Of a stretch of DNA of 64,000 nt, positions 36,773 through 46,422 are shown piece after piece. Made by a program: the position numbers and the translations under genes. The notes beneath the pieces were generated by a model. That model did not search any database, was not told the origin of the DNA, and saw only the letters and a list, made by a program, of their open reading frames with translations. This DNA is from Bosea sp. (in: a-proteobacteria) (GTDB lineage Bacteria; Pseudomonadota; Alphaproteobacteria; Rhizobiales; Beijerinckiaceae), in the NCBI GenBank assembly GCA_023910605.1, contig JAAVVV010000001.1, positions 62,001 to 126,000 of the forward strand. The letters are read 5' to 3'. How positions within the stretch are numbered: the stretch's first letter is position 1; each line of letters opens with the position of its first letter.

Positions 36773-39424
36773 TCACGGCCGGGACCCCTTCTTCGCGGCA
36801 GGGCGTGGCGCTTCCGTGGCGGGAGCGGCCGGCGGAGGCGGCGGGGCCGGGCGGCGACGCGCCTGATAGGCCGCCGCCTGCGCCTCCTGCGCATCCTCGA
36901 TCGTGTCGACGAGCTCGTCCAGCGTGTCCTCGATGCGGTCCAGCCCCTTCACTGCCACCTCCCGCTCCGGCTGGCCGATGCCATGCTGCGCCAGCTCGGG
37001 GAAGATGGCGAAGTGCAGGTCGCTTGCGACCACGCCCACCATGTCCACATCCGGCACCACACAGAACAGCTCGAACTCCAGCGACGTCTCGCCGATCTTC
37101 TTGAACATCACCCGCGGCGACGGCTCGGCCATGACCTGCGGGTGGGCGAGGGCTGCCGTCAGCATGACCTCGCGCACGTGATCGGGCCTGGCCGTGCGCG
37201 CCACTGCAAGGGCGATCAGCACGCGGCCGGTCCGGTCCGAACGCACCCGGTTCTTCACCACGCCGGAGATGAGGTTGGAGTTGGGCACGATCACGGTGGA
37301 GCGGTCGAAGGTCTCGATCTCGGTCGAGCGCACGTTGATGCGCTTCACGATGCCCTCGCCGTCGCCGACCACGATCTGGTCGCCGACGCGGATCGGCCGC
37401 TCCCAGAGCAGGATCAGCCCCGAGACGAAGTTCGAAACCACCGATTGCAGGCCAAAGCCGATGCCGACCGACAGCGCACCGGCCACGATGGTCAGCCGCT
37501 CGAGGCTCAGCCCCAGCGATGAAATCGCCAGCGCAAGGGCAGCGAGGAAGCCGACATAGCGAACCATGGTGCGCATCGAGTTGCGCAGGCCGGTGTCGAG
37601 ATCGGTGGCGGGCAGGAAGCGCTCGTCCAGCCACCGCGTCAGCGCCTTGGTGGCGGCAAGCCCCAGCGCGAAGAGCAGGGCCGCGATGATGATCGCCGAG
37701 AGCGACACCGTCACATCCCCGACCTTGAAGCCGAAGAAGGCGGCCTTGATCGAGGAGGTCAGGTCAGCCGATTCGATCCCCCAGGGCGCGAGGATGAGCA
37801 TGCCCGCCAGGAAGAGCAGCACGAGCTTGACGAGGCCCGTGCCCAGCACGGCCGCCTGCTCCAGCGAGCGCCTGCGCAGGCCGACATTGGCCTGCAGCGT
37901 CAGCGACACACGCCCATTGCCGGCGAGCAGCCTCTGCAGCGCCTCATCGGCGAACATCAGCGCGAGCGCGACCAGCGTGGCAACGATCACCACCCAGGCC
38001 GACTGCTCCACGAGGAAGGAGGCGAAGGCGGCATAGCCGGCCAGCGCCGCCCCCCCGATCAGCACGACGAGCAGCCAGCCCACGAGCCTGAGCGGCGCCA
38101 GCTTGGCTCCGTCCACCAGCATGTAAGGACCGAGGCAGGCCTCGTCCTCGTCATGTGTGTCGCGCAGCTTGTTGAGCCAGTAGGCCAGCACGCCCGCGAA
38201 CAGCAGCGCGAAGACGGAGCGGGCAGCGATGGACAGCGACAGGCCCGCGGCGATGGCCCCCAGCAGGGCCTCCACCGCCTTCGACGTCACCAGCACCGCT
38301 GCGGCCGAGCCCATCAGCCGCTTGAGGATACGGGCATTGCGATCGGCCACGCCGAAGATGCGCCGATGCGGCCATTTCGGCGCCAGGGTCGCATCCGAGA
38401 GCGCGCTGACGAAGGCGAGGAATGCGAAGCCGCCCAGCAGCGCCCAGACGAAGGGCTCCACTCGCCGCGGCACCAGCCCGCCATTGACCAGCGCGGAATA
38501 GACGAGCCAGCTCGCCAGCGCAGCCGGCAGCGCCCCCGCGACCAGCCGTACGAGGGCGGCAAGCAGCCGTTTCATGCGCGTGGCTTCAGCCCCCGTCTCG
38601 AGCCTGCCCATGATCGAGGGCAGATAGCGCAGGCGGGCGGAATAGAGCGCGAAGCCGGCCAGCAACGACAGCAGCACCAGCCCGAAGCTGCGCTCCTGCA
38701 TCCGCATCAGCGCCGTGGCCAGCCAGTCCGACGCCAGCAGATTCATGGCCCGGACATCGGCCGGCAGCGTGGACAGGAGCGGGCCCCAGAGCGCCGGCGA
38801 GACAAAGCTTGGAGAGGATTCGAACAGCGTGCGTGCAAACAATGCCCGGCGCTGGTCGGCCACGTTGGCGATGATATGCTCGGCCTGCAGCAATACGGCG
38901 CGCGAGAGCCGCGCCCCCTCATCGGCCTCGGTCTGCGCCTTCTCGCGCAGCGCGCGCTCGGCGGCGATGTCGCCGCTTTCGGGCGGGGCCTTGGCATCGG
39001 GCTTGGGGCCGAGCTGGTCGAGCCTGAGCTTGGCCTGCTCGGCGCGCTGGCTGAGCTGGTCGGTGAGGACGCGCAACTCGTCCAGCATGGGATCGACACG
39101 CTGCCGCATGCGCTGAAGTTCGGGGTCGCGCAGCTCCCGGCTGCCAAGCGCGGTCTCGACCAGCTGGATCTCGCTGCGCAGCGCCTCCATCCGGGTGCGC
39201 GCTGCGCCCGGATCCGCCGGTTGCGCCTGGGCCAGCGATGCCATCAGCACCACCACAAGTGCGCCGGCGAGCCGCAGAGCGCCCGCCGCTGCGCGGGCAG
39301 CGGCATGACGGCAGCGCGCGCCGGCCCGGATCAGGAAGCCCGGAAACCGGTCGGCACGGGCGGATGGACCTGCGCCGGAGGCCTGCGCCACGGAGCGGCT
39401 GGCGGCGATCATGCTCATGCTCAC
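36773..39424 (-). CDS. Large MscS-type mechanosensitive channel (DUF3772 N-terminus)
   Basis: About 883 residues: an unusually long basic leader before a hydrophobic stretch ending SLAQAQ (signal peptide near residues 48-68), a periplasmic coiled-coil DUF3772 region (about 75-215), roughly eleven membrane helices, and the MscS core GIGFGLQSVVSNFVSGLILL (about 655-675) with VGDQIVVGDGEGIV. It relieves turgor on osmotic downshock, as MscK/YbdG-like channels do. A GTG at 39424 overlaps the dgcR-like stop (GTGA); ATG codons at 39418 and 39412 are alternatives. The C-terminus is Pro/Ala/Lys-rich. Confidence 0.87.
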   Translation of the reverse strand: MSMSMIAASRSVAQASGAGPSARADRFPGFLIRAGARCRHAAARAAAGALRLAGALVVVLMASLAQAQPADPGAARTRMEALRSEIQLVETALGSRELRDPELQRMRQRVDPMLDELRVLTDQLSQRAEQAKLRLDQLGPKPDAKAPPESGDIAAERALREKAQTEADEGARLSRAVLLQAEHIIANVADQRRALFARTLFESSPSFVSPALWGPLLSTLPADVRAMNLLASDWLATALMRMQERSFGLVLLSLLAGFALYSARLRYLPSIMGRLETGAEATRMKRLLAALVRLVAGALPAALASWLVYSALVNGGLVPRRVEPFVWALLGGFAFLAFVSALSDATLAPKWPHRRIFGVADRNARILKRLMGSAAAVLVTSKAVEALLGAIAAGLSLSIAARSVFALLFAGVLAYWLNKLRDTHDEDEACLGPYMLVDGAKLAPLRLVGWLLVVLIGGAALAGYAAFASFLVEQSAWVVIVATLVALALMFADEALQRLLAGNGRVSLTLQANVGLRRRSLEQAAVLGTGLVKLVLLFLAGMLILAPWGIESADLTSSIKAAFFGFKVGDVTVSLSAIIIAALLFALGLAATKALTRWLDERFLPATDLDTGLRNSMRTMVRYVGFLAALALAISSLGLSLERLTIVAGALSVGIGFGLQSVVSNFVSGLILLWERPIRVGDQIVVGDGEGIVKRINVRSTEIETFDRSTVIVPNSNLISGVVKNRVRSDRTGRVLIALAVARTARPDHVREVMLTAALAHPQVMAEPSPRVMFKKIGETSLEFELFCVVPDVDMVGVVASDLHFAIFPELAQHGIGQPEREVAVKGLDRIEDTLDELVDTIEDAQEAQAAAYQARRRPAPPPPPAAPATEAPRPAAKKGSRP

Positions 39425-40401
39425 ACCTTGCTGGAGGGTCGATTCGGAACGCGGCGAGCCTCGCCTCGGGAGTACGGCAAAGGCAAGGCCCGCGATGGAA
39501 GGCCGGCCTGCCCGGCCCCCTCCACCATGCGCCGCCAGATCTCGGTCACGCTGCGCCGGCGCTGCTGGCGAGCCTTGAAGGCGACAATCGACAAAGGCAG
39601 CCGCCAGCCTTCGCCGCCCAGAGGCGTCAGCACGCCGCCATGGGCCGCAACGGTGGAGGCGGTGAGCCAGGCCACGCCCAGATCGGCCGCGGCCATGGCA
39701 TGGAGCACGTCCGACATGTCGCTTTCGGCAACGCGCGCTCCCACCAGCGGCGCGGGCGCGGCCTCGATCACGATGTCGGCAAGCCGCGCGAAGTAGATCG
39801 CCGGAGAGTACATCAGGAGCGGCACTGGCCGCGCTTCGGAGCCGGGAAAACTCCAGCCCTGCGCAAGGGCGCTGCGGCTGGCATGAGGCGCAAACATGTC
39901 GGTGGCAAGCACGAGCCGGTCAAAGCGGTCGGGATCGACATGGATCGGCTGCTGCCCCGTCTCGTGGCAGATCATGATGTCGGCGGCGCCCGAGACGAGC
40001 GAGCCGACCAGATCGAGCACATTGCCGTGGACCAGCGCGCAGGTGGCGGAGCTCTCCGCCGTCCATTGCCGCCACCAGGAGCTGAAGATCGAGCTGGCGA
40101 TGACATAAGGGAGCGCTACCCGCAAATGGTCGCGCCCGAAGACCGGGCGGCCGTCGACCTCGCTGCGGGCCTCGGCGAGCTTGAGCAGCAACTCGGCCGC
40201 ATGCAGGCGGAATTGCTCCCCGGCTGCCGTCAGTCGCGGCGGAAAGCTGCCGCGGTCGATCAGTGCTGCGCCGGCCCAGGCCTCGAGCGACTGGATGCGC
40301 CGGCTGAACGCCGCCTGCGAGGTGTTGCGCCGCCCGGCCGCGCGGGTGAAGCTGCCGACCTCGGCGAGCGCCAGAAAATCCTGCAGCCAGCGCGTATCCA
40401 C
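39421..40401 (-). CDS. dgcR: LysR-family regulator, probable DgcR (D-glutamate locus)
   Basis: 326 residues. N-terminal helix-turn-helix: WLQDFLALAEVGSFTRAAGR, then NTSQAAFSRRIQSLE, typical LysR; the C-terminal effector domain follows. The GTG at 40401 has a GGGAGCG ribosome binding site 9 nt before it and begins VDTRWLQDF, which matches family starts better than the TTG at 40422. The gene is divergent from dgcN across 224 bp containing a perfect LysR box. The assignment to DgcR rests on this position beside dgcNA, as known for D-glutamate loci; sequence alone only says LysR. Confidence 0.75.
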   Translation of the reverse strand: MDTRWLQDFLALAEVGSFTRAAGRRNTSQAAFSRRIQSLEAWAGAALIDRGSFPPRLTAAGEQFRLHAAELLLKLAEARSEVDGRPVFGRDHLRVALPYVIASSIFSSWWRQWTAESSATCALVHGNVLDLVGSLVSGAADIMICHETGQQPIHVDPDRFDRLVLATDMFAPHASRSALAQGWSFPGSEARPVPLLMYSPAIYFARLADIVIEAAPAPLVGARVAESDMSDVLHAMAAADLGVAWLTASTVAAHGGVLTPLGGEGWRLPLSIVAFKARQQRRRSVTEIWRRMVEGAGQAGLPSRALPLPYSRGEARRVPNRPSSKV

Positions 40402-40484
40402 AGCATTCGCTCCCGGAAACAAGGCCGCCCTGGGTGCGGCGGCTGAAGCTATGCCACGGCAGGGTGCGCCTCGCCTAGGAGGCC

Positions 40485-40499
40485 ATGCAGAATTTGCAT
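40485..40499. promoter_or_regulatory. LysR-type operator box T-N11-A
   Basis: ATGCAGAATTTGCAT is a perfect inverted repeat (ATGCA-N5-TGCAT) that contains T-N11-A (T at 40486, A at 40498), the LysR-family recognition pattern. It lies in the divergent dgcR/dgcN promoter region, 84 bp from the dgcR start and 126 bp from the dgcN start. Confidence 0.7.
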
Positions 40500-40506
40500 C
40501 GCTCGG

Positions 40507-40522
40507 CCGGGTTCAGACCCGG
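40507..40522. promoter_or_regulatory. Short hairpin in the dgcR/dgcN intergenic region
   Basis: CCGGGT (40507-40512) and ACCCGG (40517-40522) pair around TCAG, 7 bp from the LysR box. It could be a second half-site for the regulator or a leader hairpin of either message. Confidence 0.3.
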
Positions 40523-40625
40523 TGAACAGCCCCGTTCTCGCGCGACATGTTGCGTCCTTTGCATTGGCGAATGGCGCGATGCCCGTGCCATGCTTGGCTG
40601 ACAGGACGCACAGCCGGAGCCACGC

Positions 40626-41663
40626 ATGCAGATCACCCCGCCTTATCTCATGTTTCTCGGCGATGTCCCCGACCAGTTGGCCGCCAAGACCGCCCATGGC
40701 ATCGCGGACTGGCGCAAGGAATGGTGCCTCGGCCAAATGCGCCTGCCCGGCTGCGGCGCGGACCTTCACATCCCCGACATGAGCATCGACGCGGCCGTGG
40801 CGGCCGGAGCCCGGACATTTGTGGTCGGGGTCGCCAATGCGGGCGGCGTGCTGCCCGGGCATTGGACGCACTCCATCGTAGCGGCCATCGAGGCGGGTCT
40901 GGATGTCGCCAGCGGGCTGCACATGCGGCTGGGGGACAACCCCGCCATAGCGGCGGCGGCCGCGCGCCATGGCCGGGCGTTGCACGATGTGCGCCACACA
41001 ACGCAGCGCTTCGACACCGGCAAGGGCACGAAGCGGCCGGGCCTGCGCCTGCTGACAGTCGGCACGGACTGCTCAGCCGGCAAGAAATACACCGCGCTGG
41101 CGCTGGAGCGCGAGATGCGGACCCGCGGCTTCGACGCCGATTTCCGCGCCACTGGCCAGACCGGCGTGTTCATTTCCGGCCGCGGCGTCGCCATCGACGC
41201 GGTGGTGGCCGATTTCATCTCGGGCGCGGTCGAATGGATCGCGCCGGCAGCCGGTCCGGGCCACTGGGATCTCGTCGAGGGCCAGGGTTCGCTCTTCCAT
41301 CCATCCTTCGCGGGTGTGAGCCTGGGCCTGCTGCACGGCGCCCAGCCCGACGCCTTCGTGGTCTGTCACGAGCCGACCCGCACGACCATGCGCGGCGTTC
41401 AGCATCCCTTGCCCTCCATCCGGGAGGTGATCGACCTCACCATCGCCTGCGGAAGGCTCACCAATCCGGCGATCCGCTGCATCGGCATCGCCATCAACAC
41501 CCAGGCGCTGGATGAGGCGGCCGCGCGCCAGGTTCTCGCCGAGGCTGACGCGGCGCATGGCCTGCCGGCTGTCGATCCGGTGCGCTTCGGCGTCGGCCCC
41601 ATCGTGGATCGCCTCGCCTCGGCATTCCCGCAATCCACACGGAGCGGAGCGGAGCGCCGATGA
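40626..41663 (+). CDS. dgcN: D-glutamate N-acetyltransferase DgcN (DUF1611)
   Basis: 345-residue DUF1611 protein. The N-terminal Rossmann-like half (GARTFVVGVANAGGVLPG) is followed by a P-loop-like domain with GTDCSAGKKYT at about residues 146-156 and GQTGVFISGRGVAID. This family contains DgcN, which acetylates D-glutamate to N-acetyl-D-glutamate in the D-glutamate catabolic route described in marine proteobacteria. The ATGA overlap with dgcA downstream and the divergent LysR gene match that locus. Other DUF1611 members are uncharacterised, so the assignment relies partly on context. Confidence 0.85.
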   Translation: MQITPPYLMFLGDVPDQLAAKTAHGIADWRKEWCLGQMRLPGCGADLHIPDMSIDAAVAAGARTFVVGVANAGGVLPGHWTHSIVAAIEAGLDVASGLHMRLGDNPAIAAAAARHGRALHDVRHTTQRFDTGKGTKRPGLRLLTVGTDCSAGKKYTALALEREMRTRGFDADFRATGQTGVFISGRGVAIDAVVADFISGAVEWIAPAAGPGHWDLVEGQGSLFHPSFAGVSLGLLHGAQPDAFVVCHEPTRTTMRGVQHPLPSIREVIDLTIACGRLTNPAIRCIGIAINTQALDEAAARQVLAEADAAHGLPAVDPVRFGVGPIVDRLASAFPQSTRSGAERR

Positions 41664-42655
41664 ACAGCTTCCCGCCCTTGCATCTGGCCGCCGAGATCGA
41701 GCGCTTCCCGATCGCCGGTGCCTTCACCATCGCGCGCGGCAGCCGCACCGAGGCCGTGGTCGTCCGCGCCAGCGTCAGCGACGGGGTGCATGCAGGCCAT
41801 GGCGAATGCGTGCCCTATCCGCGCTATGGCGAGACGGTGGAGGGCGTGCTTGCCGATATTCTTGCGCAGGCAGGCCGGCTCGACGAAGGCGGCGCCCAGC
41901 AGGCGTTGACGGCAGGGCTGAAGGCAGGCGCCGCCCGCAACGCGCTCGATTGCGCCTTGTGGGACTTCGCCGCCAAGGCCGCGGGCCGCCGTGTCTGGGA
42001 GCTTGCCGGCGTGCCCGCGCCGCCGGAGCTGACGACCTGCTTCACCTTGAGCCTCGGCAGCCCGCAAGAGATGGAGGCCGCCGCGCGCGGCGCGGCGCAT
42101 CGCCCGCTTCTCAAGGTCAAGCTCGGGGCGCCGGGCGATGTCGAGCGCATCGCCGCGGTGCGTCGCGGGGCGCCAACCTCGCGCATTGTGGTCGACGCCA
42201 ACGAGGGCTGGACGCCTCAGAGCTTCACGCCGAACCTCGCCGCCTGCGTCGCGGCCGACGTCGAACTGATCGAGCAGCCCTTTCCCGCAGCCGATGACGC
42301 CGCGCTCGAGGCGCTTGAGAGCCCCATACCGATCTGCGCGGACGAGAGCTTCCACGGCGTGGAGCACCTCGAGGCCATCATGCGCCGCTACGACGCAATC
42401 AACATCAAGCTCGACAAGACGGGCGGGCTCAGCGGCGCGCTCGAGGCCATGCGCGCGGCGCGTGCGCGCGGCATGCCCGTCATGGTCGGCTGCATGCTCG
42501 CGACCTCGCTGGCCATGGCGCCGGCCATGGTGATCGCCGCCGAAGCCGCCTTCGTCGATCTCGATGGGCCGCTGCTTCTGGCGCGGGACCGCGATCCGGG
42601 CTTGCGCTTTGCCGGCAGCACGATCCACAGTTACGGATCGGATTTATGGGGCTGA
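41660..42655 (+). CDS. dgcA: N-acetyl-D-glutamate racemase DgcA (enolase superfamily)
   Basis: 331-residue member of the dipeptide-epimerase branch. Catalytic residues visible are Lys152 and Lys154 (LKVKLG), metal ligands Asp179 (VVDANEGW), Glu205 (LIEQPF) and Asp228 (CADESF), and the opposing Lys250 (INIKLDKTGG). This two-base pattern supports racemisation. Beside dgcN it should interconvert N-acetyl-D- and N-acetyl-L-glutamate. Without that neighbour it would be called an L-Ala-D/L-Glu epimerase, and the two cannot be told apart from sequence alone. It overlaps dgcN by ATGA. Confidence 0.85.
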   Translation: MNSFPPLHLAAEIERFPIAGAFTIARGSRTEAVVVRASVSDGVHAGHGECVPYPRYGETVEGVLADILAQAGRLDEGGAQQALTAGLKAGAARNALDCALWDFAAKAAGRRVWELAGVPAPPELTTCFTLSLGSPQEMEAAARGAAHRPLLKVKLGAPGDVERIAAVRRGAPTSRIVVDANEGWTPQSFTPNLAACVAADVELIEQPFPAADDAALEALESPIPICADESFHGVEHLEAIMRRYDAINIKLDKTGGLSGALEAMRAARARGMPVMVGCMLATSLAMAPAMVIAAEAAFVDLDGPLLLARDRDPGLRFAGSTIHSYGSDLWG

Positions 42656-42742
42656 GCGCCACAGCGCCAGACACGACGAAAACGCGATCAGACGGTCGCA
42701 GGCCGATCTGCTTCAACGGGATGCAAAAGGGGAGAACACGAC

Positions 42743-43780
42743 ATGACCAGACATTTCCTTACGGGGACGCTGACAGGCTGCGCCCTGCTGGCCGCGGGGG
42801 CGGCCGCGGCCCAGACGCTCGTGCCCAGCCCGACGCTGGATGCGATCCGGACGCGCGGCCACATCGAGTGCGGCGTCCATCTTGGCCTGCCCGGCTTCTC
42901 CTTCGCCAATGACAAGGGCGAATGGACCGGGCTCGACGTGGATTTCTGCAAGGCGCTGGCGGCGGCCGTGCTGGGCGACGCCGGCAAGGTGAAGTTCACG
43001 CCCACCTCCGTTCAGCAGCGCTGGCCCATCCTGCAGTCCGGTCAGGTCGACCTGCTCTCGCGCAACACCACCATCACCTTCTCGCGCAATGCCTCGCTCG
43101 GCGTGAACTTCCAGGGCATCAACTTCTACGAGGGCCAGACCTTCATTGTCCGCAAGGCGGCAAAGGCGACGGCGGCGAAGGACCTCGACGGCGCCTCGGT
43201 CTGCGTCGCCGCCGGCTCGACCGAGGAAAAGAACGCGGCCGACTGGTTCCGCGAGCGCAATCTCAAGGTGACCATCACCAACTTCCAGAAGAACGACGAC
43301 GCCATCGCCGCCTATGACGCCGGCCGCTGCGACGCCTACACCGCAGGCATCGGCGCGCTGGCAGGCCAGCGCATCAAGCTCAAGGCGCCGGACGACCACA
43401 TCATCCTGGCCGAGCCGATCTCCAATGATCCGCAGGGCCCGACCACGCGCTATGGCGACGAGCGCTGGCAGGCGGTGGTGCGCTGGGTGCTCAACGGCAT
43501 GATCGCCGCCGAACATCTGGGCGTGACCTCGAAGAACGTGGACGACATGAAGGCCAACTCGAAGAACACCGAGGTTCGCCGCCTGCTTGGCGCGGAGGGC
43601 AATTTCGGCGCGATGCTGGGCCTGTCCAATGACTGGATGCACAACGCCATCAAGCAGGTCGGCAATTACAGCGAGAGCTTCGAACGCACGGTCGGCAAGG
43701 AATCGCCGCTCAAGCTCGAGCGCGGCCAGAACGCGCTCTGGACCAAGGGCGGCCTGCTCTTCACCCCACCCTTCCAGTGA
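42743..43780 (+). CDS. aapJ: General amino-acid ABC transporter, substrate-binding protein (AapJ type)
   Basis: 345-residue precursor with a signal peptide (about 1-23, AAAAQT cleavage). AapJ/BztA family marks are ECGVHLGLPGFSFANDKGEW, TGLDVDFCKALAAAVLGD, RNTTITFSRNA and CVAAGSTEEKN, all conserved. It captures amino acids, mostly acidic and polar ones, in the periplasm. It follows dgcA by 87 bp, and a hairpin separates it from the permease genes. Confidence 0.92.
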   Translation: MTRHFLTGTLTGCALLAAGAAAAQTLVPSPTLDAIRTRGHIECGVHLGLPGFSFANDKGEWTGLDVDFCKALAAAVLGDAGKVKFTPTSVQQRWPILQSGQVDLLSRNTTITFSRNASLGVNFQGINFYEGQTFIVRKAAKATAAKDLDGASVCVAAGSTEEKNAADWFRERNLKVTITNFQKNDDAIAAYDAGRCDAYTAGIGALAGQRIKLKAPDDHIILAEPISNDPQGPTTRYGDERWQAVVRWVLNGMIAAEHLGVTSKNVDDMKANSKNTEVRRLLGAEGNFGAMLGLSNDWMHNAIKQVGNYSESFERTVGKESPLKLERGQNALWTKGGLLFTPPFQ

Positions 43781-43826
43781 GATCGCAGGACGTGGTGCTT
43801 GGGGCCATGCCTCATCTCCACCCTCA

Positions 43827-43848
43827 CCCTCCCCGCAAGCGGGGAGGG
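43827..43848 (+). repeat. Palindromic hairpin element between aapJ and aapQ
   Basis: A perfect 10-bp GC stem, CCCTCCCCGC (43827-43836) and GCGGGGAGGG (43839-43848), surrounds AA. The flanks CTCACCCT and GGGCATGAG extend the symmetry partially. Elements of this wording (ctccccgcaagcggggag) are scattered as repeated palindromes in many Rhizobiales genomes; only one copy is seen in this window. With no T run it more likely stabilises the aapJ message than ends it. Confidence 0.7.
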
Positions 43849-43894
43849 CATGAGCGGCGATATGCAGTCCATCCCAAACCCCTGAAAGCCCCGC

Positions 43895-45058
43895 ATGCCT
43901 ACCCTGCGCCGCCTGTTTTATGACGCCCGGGTGCGTGACCTGTTCTGGCAGGCGCTGATCTGCGGGACGCTGGTGGCCCTCACCATCTTCTTCGTGCGCA
44001 ATGCCTCGCAGAACATGGTCAATGCCGGCATCGCCTCGGGCTTCGATTTCCTGTGGCGCTCCTCGGGCATCGACGTGCCCTTCGTGCTCACCAGCTACCG
44101 GCCCTCGGACACGATCTGGTCACTGTTCTGGGCCGGCGTCGCCAACACGCTGTTCGTCTCGCTCATCGCCATGGCGCTGGCCACGGTTCTCGGGTTTTTC
44201 ATCGGCCTCGCCAGGCTGTCGACGCACTGGCTGCTCGCCGCCGTGGCGGGGGCCTATGTCGAGTTCGTGCGCAACATACCTTTGCTGTTCTTCGTGCTGT
44301 TCTGGTATTTCGGGGTGATTGCGGCCCTGCCCGCCCCACGTGACAGCCTCTCCGCGTTTTCCAGCATCTTCCTCAACAACCGGGGCCTCACGATTCCCGC
44401 CACGGCCGATGGCGCGGCCTTCCGCTGGGCGCTCATGGCCATCCTCGCAGGCTTCATCGCGCAGTGGCTCATCGCGCGCTGGGCCGCAGCGCGCAAGGCG
44501 CGGACCGGCCAGGATGCGCCTGTGACGGCGGCCGGGCTAGCGCTGTGCGTGGGCCTGCCCATCCTTGCGCTGGTTATCGCGGCCCGCGCCACCATCTGGG
44601 AGTTTCCCGAGGCCGGGCGTTTCAACCTGCGCGGCGGCTTCGTCGTCATTCCGGAATTCGTGGCGCTGCTGGCCGCGCTCGTGACCTACACCGCCGGCTT
44701 CGTGGCGGAGATCGTGCGCGGCGGCATTGCGGCGGTGGCAAGGGGCCAGCGCGAGGCGGCGGCCTCTCTGGGGCTGAAGCCCGCCCAGATCCTGCGCTTC
44801 GTGGTCGTGCCGCAGGCGCTGCGGGTGATGATACCGCCCATGACCAGCCAGTATCTGAACGTGCTGAAGAACTCGTCCTTCGGCGCGGTCATCGCCTATC
44901 CCGACGTGGTCAGCCTGTTCATGGGCTCAGCGCTCAACAACACCGGCCAGGCCATAGAGATCATCGCCATGACGCTGGCAGTCTACCTCTTCTTCGGCCT
45001 CATCGTGTCGGCCTTGATGAACGTCTACAATGCGCGCATCGCGCTGGTGACCCGATGA
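43895..45058 (+). CDS. aapQ: Amino-acid ABC transporter permease (AapQ type)
   Basis: 387 residues, longer than the usual HisQM permease, as AapQ/BztB proteins are. Several N-terminal helices and the long periplasmic insert come before the core; the EAA loop reads GGIAAVARGQREAAASLGLK. The C-terminal NTGQAIEIIAMTL matches HisM-type permeases. The stop overlaps the aapM start (ATGA). Confidence 0.93.
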   Translation: MPTLRRLFYDARVRDLFWQALICGTLVALTIFFVRNASQNMVNAGIASGFDFLWRSSGIDVPFVLTSYRPSDTIWSLFWAGVANTLFVSLIAMALATVLGFFIGLARLSTHWLLAAVAGAYVEFVRNIPLLFFVLFWYFGVIAALPAPRDSLSAFSSIFLNNRGLTIPATADGAAFRWALMAILAGFIAQWLIARWAAARKARTGQDAPVTAAGLALCVGLPILALVIAARATIWEFPEAGRFNLRGGFVVIPEFVALLAALVTYTAGFVAEIVRGGIAAVARGQREAAASLGLKPAQILRFVVVPQALRVMIPPMTSQYLNVLKNSSFGAVIAYPDVVSLFMGSALNNTGQAIEIIAMTLAVYLFFGLIVSALMNVYNARIALVTR

Positions 45059-46107
45059 TCGCCGCCCCGTCCGGCTTCTCTCTCTGGCGTTCGCGCCTGT
45101 TCGCGAGCCCCGGCGGCGCGGTTGTGACGCTTCTGGTGCTGGCCACGATGCTGTGGGTGCTCATTCCCTTCCTCCGCTGGGCCGTGATCGACGCCAGCTG
45201 GTCCGGCGAGACCCGGGCCGACTGCAAGGCGGGCGGAGCCTGCTGGGTTTTCGTCAAGGCCCGCTTCAGCCAGTTCATGTACGGGTTCTATCCCGCAGCC
45301 GAGCGCTGGCGCCCCAACCTGCTGGGCCTTGCCGTGATCGGCGCGCTGGCCCCGCTTTTCATCCTGCGCGGACGGGCGCGGCTCCGGCTTGGCCTTGTCG
45401 CTGTCCTTGTCCTGCCGGTTCTGGGCATCTGGCTGCTCGGCGGCGGCATGGGGCTGCGGCCGATCGAGACGCGCGAATGGGGCGGGCTGATGCTCACCCT
45501 GTTCATCGCCATCCATGCCGGGCTGATCGCGGTGCCGCTCGGCATCCTGCTGGCGCTCGGCCGGCAATCGCGCCTGCCGCTGATCCGCACCCTTTCGGTG
45601 ATCTTCATCGAGTTCTGGCGCGGCGTGCCCATCATCGCCGTGATCTTCCTCGCATCCCTGCTCCTGCCGCTCATCATGCCGGCCGGCGTGGGCGTGGACC
45701 GGCTGGCCCGCGCGGTGATCGGCCTTGGCCTCGTCATCGCCGCCTACATGGCCGAGGCCGTGCGTGGCGGCCTGCAGGCCCTGCCCAGGGGACAGGCCGA
45801 GGCCGCCGCCGCTCTCGGGCTGGGCTACTGGCAGACGACCGCGCTCATCACCTTGCCGCAGGCGCTGCGCATCTCGCTGCCGGCCATGACGAACGAGTTC
45901 ATCGCGCTGGTGAAGAACACGACGCTCGTCCTGGTGGTCTCGATCCTGGATCTGCTCGGCATCGCGCAGGGCTCGCTTGCCGACCCGGCCTGGGTGGGCA
46001 TGAACATGGAAGCCTATCTGTTCTCGGGCGCGATCTATTGGCTGATCTGCTTCGCGCTCTCGCGCTGGAGCCGTTCGCTCGAGGCGAGCGGGCCGGGGGC
46101 GCACTGA
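45055..46107 (+). CDS. aapM: Amino-acid ABC transporter permease (AapM type)
   Basis: 350 residues; the ATG at 45055 overlaps aapQ. The EAA loop is GGLQALPRGQAEAAAALGLG, followed by ALRISLPAMTNEFIALVKNT, typical of AapM/BztC. The expected next gene of the operon, the ATPase aapP, is not present: a tRNA gene on the opposite strand comes next. The ATPase must be supplied from elsewhere or the system is incomplete. Confidence 0.92.
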   Translation: MIAAPSGFSLWRSRLFASPGGAVVTLLVLATMLWVLIPFLRWAVIDASWSGETRADCKAGGACWVFVKARFSQFMYGFYPAAERWRPNLLGLAVIGALAPLFILRGRARLRLGLVAVLVLPVLGIWLLGGGMGLRPIETREWGGLMLTLFIAIHAGLIAVPLGILLALGRQSRLPLIRTLSVIFIEFWRGVPIIAVIFLASLLLPLIMPAGVGVDRLARAVIGLGLVIAAYMAEAVRGGLQALPRGQAEAAAALGLGYWQTTALITLPQALRISLPAMTNEFIALVKNTTLVLVVSILDLLGIAQGSLADPAWVGMNMEAYLFSGAIYWLICFALSRWSRSLEASGPGAH

Positions 46108-46158
46108 CAGCGCCCGCTCCGCACCCGGCGGCGCTCCGCCGGGCGGTGGGACGAACAA

Positions 46159-46235
<77 letters not shown>

Positions 46236-46422
46236 ACGCGCCGCTTGTAGCATGATTTGGGAACCCGTGAAGAGCCTGCCTCGCGCGGTGGGGCCGTGCA
46301 TGGCTGCGTGATCGCCAGCATCGCGCATGCTGATCGTGCGCGCGCTGCACTTGCCCGCCGGCCCGATCTGTCCCAAACCGGGACTGATAGCCTTGCCTCC
46401 CCCGTTCCGGACCGGATTTGCC

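Follow-up and report, generated by a model that had tools for sequence, protein, structure and literature searches.

D-glutamate (D-Glu) is one of the main D-amino acids of bacterial walls. A pathway for its use, composed of the enzymes DgcN and DgcA with the regulator DgcR, was reportedly described by Yu et al. in 2023 and is said to have been characterised in marine bacteria and haloarchaea. AapJQMP is a general amino-acid importer of rhizobia and belongs to the ATP-binding cassette (ABC) type. We analyzed a 64,000-nucleotide stretch of DNA from Bosea sp. (contig JAAVVV010000001.1, positions 62,001 to 126,000 of the forward strand; hereafter the window), where six open genes at 39421-46107 encode a LysR-type regulator on the minus strand and, on the plus strand, dgcN-dgcA followed by the Aap-type importer genes aapJ-aapQ-aapM.

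As far as the accessible text of the published reports goes, DgcN and DgcA are both present in a Rhodobacteraceae strain growing on D-Glu (PMC11747546), the DgcN-DgcA route is found in Shewanella, with eight candidate D-Glu transport genes named from expression (PMC10845958), and dgcN was counted in 32 class-level clades of Mariana Trench genomes (PMC12363236). No importer tied to this route was found in that accessible text. Among the literature matches listed for AapJ with D-glutamate or D-amino acids the word aapJ was absent, and those listed for D-amino-acid binding proteins held nothing of use. In Anabaena, according to the accessible part of one study, the importers N-II (NatFGH-BgtA) and Bgt use a common ATPase, BgtA (PMC4500139).

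On balance we consider it rather probable that the cluster is a dgcNA operon controlled by LysR, which in one subclade captured an importer that borrows its ATPase and carries an acid without a free alpha-amine; a complete D-Glu scavenger it probably is not. The importer belongs to an ATPase-less Aap lineage, whose members are marked here with an asterisk (AapJ*, AapQ*, AapM* and, together, AapJQM*). It has the binding protein and the two family permeases of AapJQMP; the initial annotation named it AapJQM and left the missing AapP unremarked. In fact, the ABC ATPase family has 128 matches in the genome and none of them, aapP included, lies between 33253 and 63711 of the window; the "self-contained scavenging unit" that had been proposed is not borne out.

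Because there is no ATPase gene near the cluster, AapJQM*, if it works, must borrow one, most likely from a complete aap operon (two aapJ, aapQ, aapM and aapP, in this order) located 2.4 Mb away in the same genome. The two aapJ copies of this operon stand in tandem upstream of aapQ-aapM-aapP (L096:9720-11857) and their mature parts look identical. A search with the genome's own AapP returned AapP itself and one 52% identical protein (C1:238986-239753), which adjoins two permease matches and an open frame resembling a binding protein by eye; the further matches over at least 100 residues have 41% identity or less. Another permease pair of polar-amino-acid type occurs in the same genome (L170:8140-9578, corresponding to C1:1688140-1689578), with no AapP match from C1:1666384 to C1:1738751. 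AapP, at 91% identity or more, is present in 56 of the 61 genomes sampled in the genus. In the fetched stretches around 20 AapM* loci of the genus (G032 included) there is no AapP match above 35%, and none above 31% around 12 AapJQM* loci taken from two further families. The likeness of ATPase-contact loops was also considered as a pointer to AapP and dropped, since it does not single out AapP; the loops agree at 59% between AapQ* and AapQ (45% overall) and at 57% between AapM* and AapM (48% overall), a pattern not found in three of four other permeases.

The binding protein points in turn to an unusual ligand. An AapJ search in 347 genomes of the order gave a match in 306, and identities among the matches listed were either 74-84% or 55% and below, with nothing between. 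The high group, AapJ*, comprises the genus, 11 of the 12 genomes sampled from a single genus in another family (the second family below) and one genome of a third family. We aligned 33 AapJ* sequences (the window, five dgcN-linked relatives, 15 other loci of the genus, and 11 plus one from the other families) with 18 canonical AapJ. Two of the 11 second-family genomes (G450 and G532) hold a second AapJ* copy, excluded from this set (L212:8944-9918 and L215:8901-9938, 73-76%); these lone copies are without aapQM* and stand opposite a different importer set with its own ATPase. The two groups are separated at 29 listed positions, one of which (residue 1) is based on seven sequences, and several are near the ligand. 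Residue 202 is Gly in 33 of 33 AapJ* and Asp, the residue expected of AapJQMP, in 18 of 18 canonical AapJ; Thr110 and Arg115 are identical in 51 of 51 sequences. Gly202, Thr110 and Arg115 align to D167, T78 and R83 of AncQR, residues whose roles have been described, and that Asp contacts the alpha-amino group of the ligand in related structures (PMC5431781). Four other PDB matches have Asp at this position, by eye. Because the contacting Asp is replaced by Gly202, AapJ* is unlikely to bind an ordinary amino acid in free form; its ligand is probably an acid that has no free amine at the usual position. The description of the system as an acidic amino-acid importer stands for the family of the binding protein and permeases; its acidic amino-acid substrate is doubtful, the Asp being lost and the importer being kept in many members of the genus that lack dgcN. 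AapJ* identity is 82-88% among the aligned loci of the genus and 77-84% for the best matches outside it, with invariant pocket residues.

A further hint, and no more than that, towards a dicarboxylate ligand comes from a class III CoA-transferase gene located 3' of aapM* in 11 of 11 second-family JQM* loci with enough contig. Where the distance was read off by eye, it ranges from 48 to some 800 bases; the contig of a twelfth locus (G336, third family) is too short to show whether the gene is there. One representative (L203:12329-13549) matches PF02515 with 410.6 bits, and its best NCBIfam model, succinate-glutarate CoA-transferase, gives 287 bits, below the cut-off of 750. Pyroglutamate was considered as a ligand and dropped: a large second-family gene upstream of aapJ*, seemingly of 5-oxoprolinase size, has histidine kinases as its best models, and the gene next to it encodes tryptophan-tRNA ligase.

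Judged from the genomes sampled, AapJQM* is a lineage older than, or at least independent of, its join to dgcNA, because AapM* (counted at 71% identity or more) is in one piece in 56 of the 61 genomes of the genus and dgcN of the window type is present in 7 of 61, namely the window's own genome and six others of 3.2-3.9 Mb (84-86% identity, one partial). AapM* has a single internal stop in G047 and G049, both counted among the 56; in G032 it is split in two, and G004, G011, G056 and G059 lack it. The 14 loci of the genus without dgcNA beside aapJ* have, in representatives, GMP reductase, EamA, AbrB-family or iron/B12-type uptake and serine-hydrolase genes upstream, and gcrA and acetylornithine transaminase genes downstream, these families having been tested on 10 proteins from three loci. 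One of these genomes, G020, carries a distant dgcN (52% identical, L143:1501-2496) on another contig, far from its aapJQM*.

These 14 loci, G020 being counted among them, also share the block CTGTTGCATAGTC at -44 to -61 upstream of aapJ* (13 exact, one with one mismatch). The block is missing in 6 of 6 dgcNA-linked loci, the window and five relatives, where the best match has 3-5 mismatches and is more than 230 bases away; within 400 bases upstream of aapJ* the window's best match has 4 mismatches, at -256. In 6 of the 14, blocks resembling it follow TTGACA close to the gene for acetylornithine transaminase, which suggests that it is a -10 element. A sigma-54 reading, for which a GG present in 9 of 14 would be required, was rejected because the blocks preceded by TTGACA favour a -10 element. 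From the last sense codon of dgcA to the codon aligned with aapJ residue 1 there are 67-174 bases in the five relatives and 90 in the window, and the window's dgcA-aapJ* gap has no plus-strand terminator-like or sigma-70-like site and a fold z-score of -0.07. The missing block and the adjacency give the impression of an importer captured by the dgc operon.

An operon for the conversion of D-Glu to N-acetyl-L-Glu is well supported at the family level. Both enzymes exceed the cut-offs of their curated equivalog models (Table 1), and the L-Ala-D/L-Glu epimerase model PRK15129 gives DgcA 293.3 bits, below its cut-off of 343. The closest solved structures are 7xrj for DgcN, 4gfi for DgcA and, for AapJ*, 4z9n, an Aap-type binding protein. 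The positions and order of the six genes given by the initial annotation were confirmed, all frames being open and the domains matching, and so were the ATGA coupling of dgcN and dgcA, which recurs at aapQ*/aapM*, and the occurrence of the pair with a divergent LysR gene in a Hyphomicrobiales (Rhizobiales) background. DgcNA as a supplier of arginine precursor was discarded, not being needed for that, as ArgJ is present in the genome.

A homologue of the window's LysR (45-76% identical) is divergent to dgcN in 15 of 80 dgcN loci. In the 300 bases upstream of dgcN the palindrome ATGCA-N5-TGCAT is exact in 13 of these 15 and has one mismatch in 2; in the 65 loci without LysR of this type it is never exact, with one mismatch in two (L037 and L046), and elsewhere in 1.45 Mb there is one exact site. 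This palindrome common to the LysR-linked dgcN promoters is new here. It has what we take to be the T-N11-A form of LysR boxes, and LysR probably acts through it as a predicted operator. The whole genome has three copies against one for a reversed control pattern; since the control also occurs once, the other two copies may be due to chance. The conserved CTTTGCATTGGC between the palindrome and dgcN is a possible second contact of LysR.

Table 1. Features of the cluster, in positions of the window
Feature	Position	Strand	Remarks
LysR-type regulator	39421..40422	-	HTH_1 and LysR_substrate above cut-off; translation may begin a few codons further in
ATGCA-N5-TGCAT palindrome, predicted LysR operator	40485..40499	.	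single copy in window
CTTTGCATTGGC, conserved, between palindrome and dgcN	40557..40568	.	identical in window and 6/6 aligned relatives (L016-L021)
dgcN, D-glutamate N-acetyltransferase by family	40626..41663	+	NF041892 (DgcN) 530.6 bits, cut-off 480
dgcA, N-acetyl-D-glutamate racemase by family	41660..42655	+	NF042940 (DgcA) 454.2 bits, cut-off 400
dgcA-aapJ* gap, 87 bases, without the promoter-like block of relatives	42656..42742	+	
aapJ*, periplasmic binding protein, ATPase-less Aap lineage	42743..43780	+	SBP_bac_3
aapJ* Gly202 codon; relatives have an Asp here, which contacts the alpha-amino group of the ligand	43346..43348	+	
aapQ*, permease	43895..45058	+	BPD_transp_1 and HEQRo_perm_3TM above cut-off
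aapM*, permease	45055..46107	+	BPD_transp_1 and HEQRo_perm_3TM above cut-off

Downstream of the cluster a tRNA-Arg (CCT) gene (46159-46235, minus strand) separates aapM* from a TauE/SafE gene, and it accounts for an open reading frame with a tRNA-like peptide at 45153-46250.

The dgcN relatives confirmed with one query number 456, and the best 80, kept as loci, are mostly from Hyphomicrobiales, for example Methylobacterium; dgcN is thus not confined to the marine bacteria and haloarchaea in which the pathway is said to have been characterised. JQM* genes are beside dgcNA in five of these 80 loci, all of the window's subclade, and in none of 74 others, the contig of L020 ending within dgcA; the window's clade of seven is firm in the DgcN tree (100/98). 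A polar-amino-acid importer lies upstream in 11 of the 80 and has an ATPase of its own, which is 56-61% identical to AapP; other linked transporters, one representative each, are a peptide-type binding protein (L024), a TRAP transporter (L035) and an MFS protein (L041). A class IV aminotransferase or a DAO-family oxidoreductase, families that include D-amino acid enzymes, is found beside other dgcNA loci (L024:7844-8725, L036:8788-9960). Homologues of dgcN (54% identical) are also carried by Klebsiella and Enterobacter plasmids, with 103 plasmid records matching, 20 of them from Klebsiella.

These data may be assembled in the following scheme. DgcN would convert D-Glu to N-acetyl-D-Glu and DgcA, going by the equivalog models, would convert the latter to N-acetyl-L-Glu, under a LysR regulator that, given the conservation of the palindrome, would act through it on dgcNA. 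A pre-existing AapJQM* would have been joined to dgcNA in one subclade of the genus, where the adjacency and the missing block are observed, and both gene sets would be read on one transcript from the dgcN promoter. The importer would be energised by AapP of the distant aap operon. AapJ*, which in the alignment keeps the carboxylate-binding Arg and Thr and has lost the Asp contacting the alpha-amino group, would carry, in place of L-Glu or L-Asp, a carboxylate with no free alpha-amine at the usual position, for example one that is N-acylated or resembles glutarate, and free D-Glu would be supplied by cell-wall turnover or by the canonical Aap system.

Several observations weigh against this scheme. 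Five genomes with AapM* (G012, G021, G026, G031 and G050) have no AapP at 91% identity or more, so that AapP is not the sole partner everywhere; in G012 the best AapP-like ATPase is 69% identical and adjoins two other permeases. Uptake linked to dgc does not depend on the pocket change, because the Asp is retained in 11 of 11 aligned binding proteins encoded beside dgcNA in other lineages. MscK and TauE genes also flank the cluster in several dgcN-positive relatives, and adjacency alone therefore proves little. The second family is without the CTGTTGCATAGTC block too, so that a gain in the other loci is an alternative to a loss in the dgcN subclade. Moreover, no consensus sigma-70 site is present in 39300-46400, and the 15 LysR-linked loci are kin rather than independent cases, as the LysR label needs 3 changes on the DgcN tree against a shuffled mean of 14.7.

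The same evidence bears on other explanations. AapJQM* with a borrowed ATPase could import D-Glu itself, the lost Asp marking a switch from the L to the D form, and the cluster would then be a true scavenging unit that shares its ATPase. The importer does adjoin dgcNA in the window and, where contigs allow, in five relatives, the promoter-like block is missing there and the carboxylate Arg is retained; however, the same pocket is found in 15 loci of the genus without adjacent dgcNA, as well as in 11 second-family genomes and one third-family genome, and the 11 Asp-keeping binding proteins just mentioned tell against such a switch, which makes this explanation unlikely. A second alternative, close to the initial annotation, is that AapJQM* takes up acidic amino acids in the ordinary way, the pocket change being tolerated and the missing ATPase gene the sole difference; this agrees with the Aap-type nature of 4z9n and with the family domains of the permeases. 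The sharp split of AapJ identities, together with 28 separating positions besides residue 1, several of them near the ligand, renders it quite improbable. We regard as very improbable that AapJQM* is a decaying, functionless remnant: the missing ATPase gene, the divided AapM* of G032 and the internal stops of G047 and G049 would fit decay, but the three genes are intact in the window and AapJ* is conserved within and outside the genus with its pocket invariant.

Beyond the preferred reading, namely capture of an ATPase-borrowing importer by the dgcNA operon, a tentative proposal that we place on the unlikely side is that AapJQM* represents a new substrate class of the Aap family, for acids with a glutarate backbone and no free alpha-amine. 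In the window's subclade N-acetyl-Glu of either hand would then reach DgcA directly, and free D-Glu would enter through DgcN, with a single LysR operator in control and the ATPase borrowed. The known pathway had been correctly recognised, and the misread importer is the more interesting half of the locus, which offers tests of the ligand of a pocket without the alpha-amino contact, of one ATPase serving two Aap systems and of a defined operator. The label "amino acid ABC transporter" on AapJ* proteins may be wrong.

Compared with the described systems, the cluster resembles the DgcN-DgcA/DgcR pathway in that both enzymes pass curated models and their genes adjoin, in order, with a regulator gene beside them; it differs in the ATPase-less importer downstream and in the promoter palindrome. 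With AapJQMP of rhizobia it shares a single binding protein, two long permeases and the gene order J-Q-M, whereas AapP is missing from the window's cluster and Gly replaces Asp at the alpha-amino contact. The N-II and Bgt importers of Anabaena, in the accessible part of that study, offer a precedent for one ATPase serving two importers of the polar amino-acid family; sharing was there reported from experiments and bgtA adjoins natFGH, whereas here it is proposed for an ATPase encoded 2.4 Mb from the cluster (PMC4500139).

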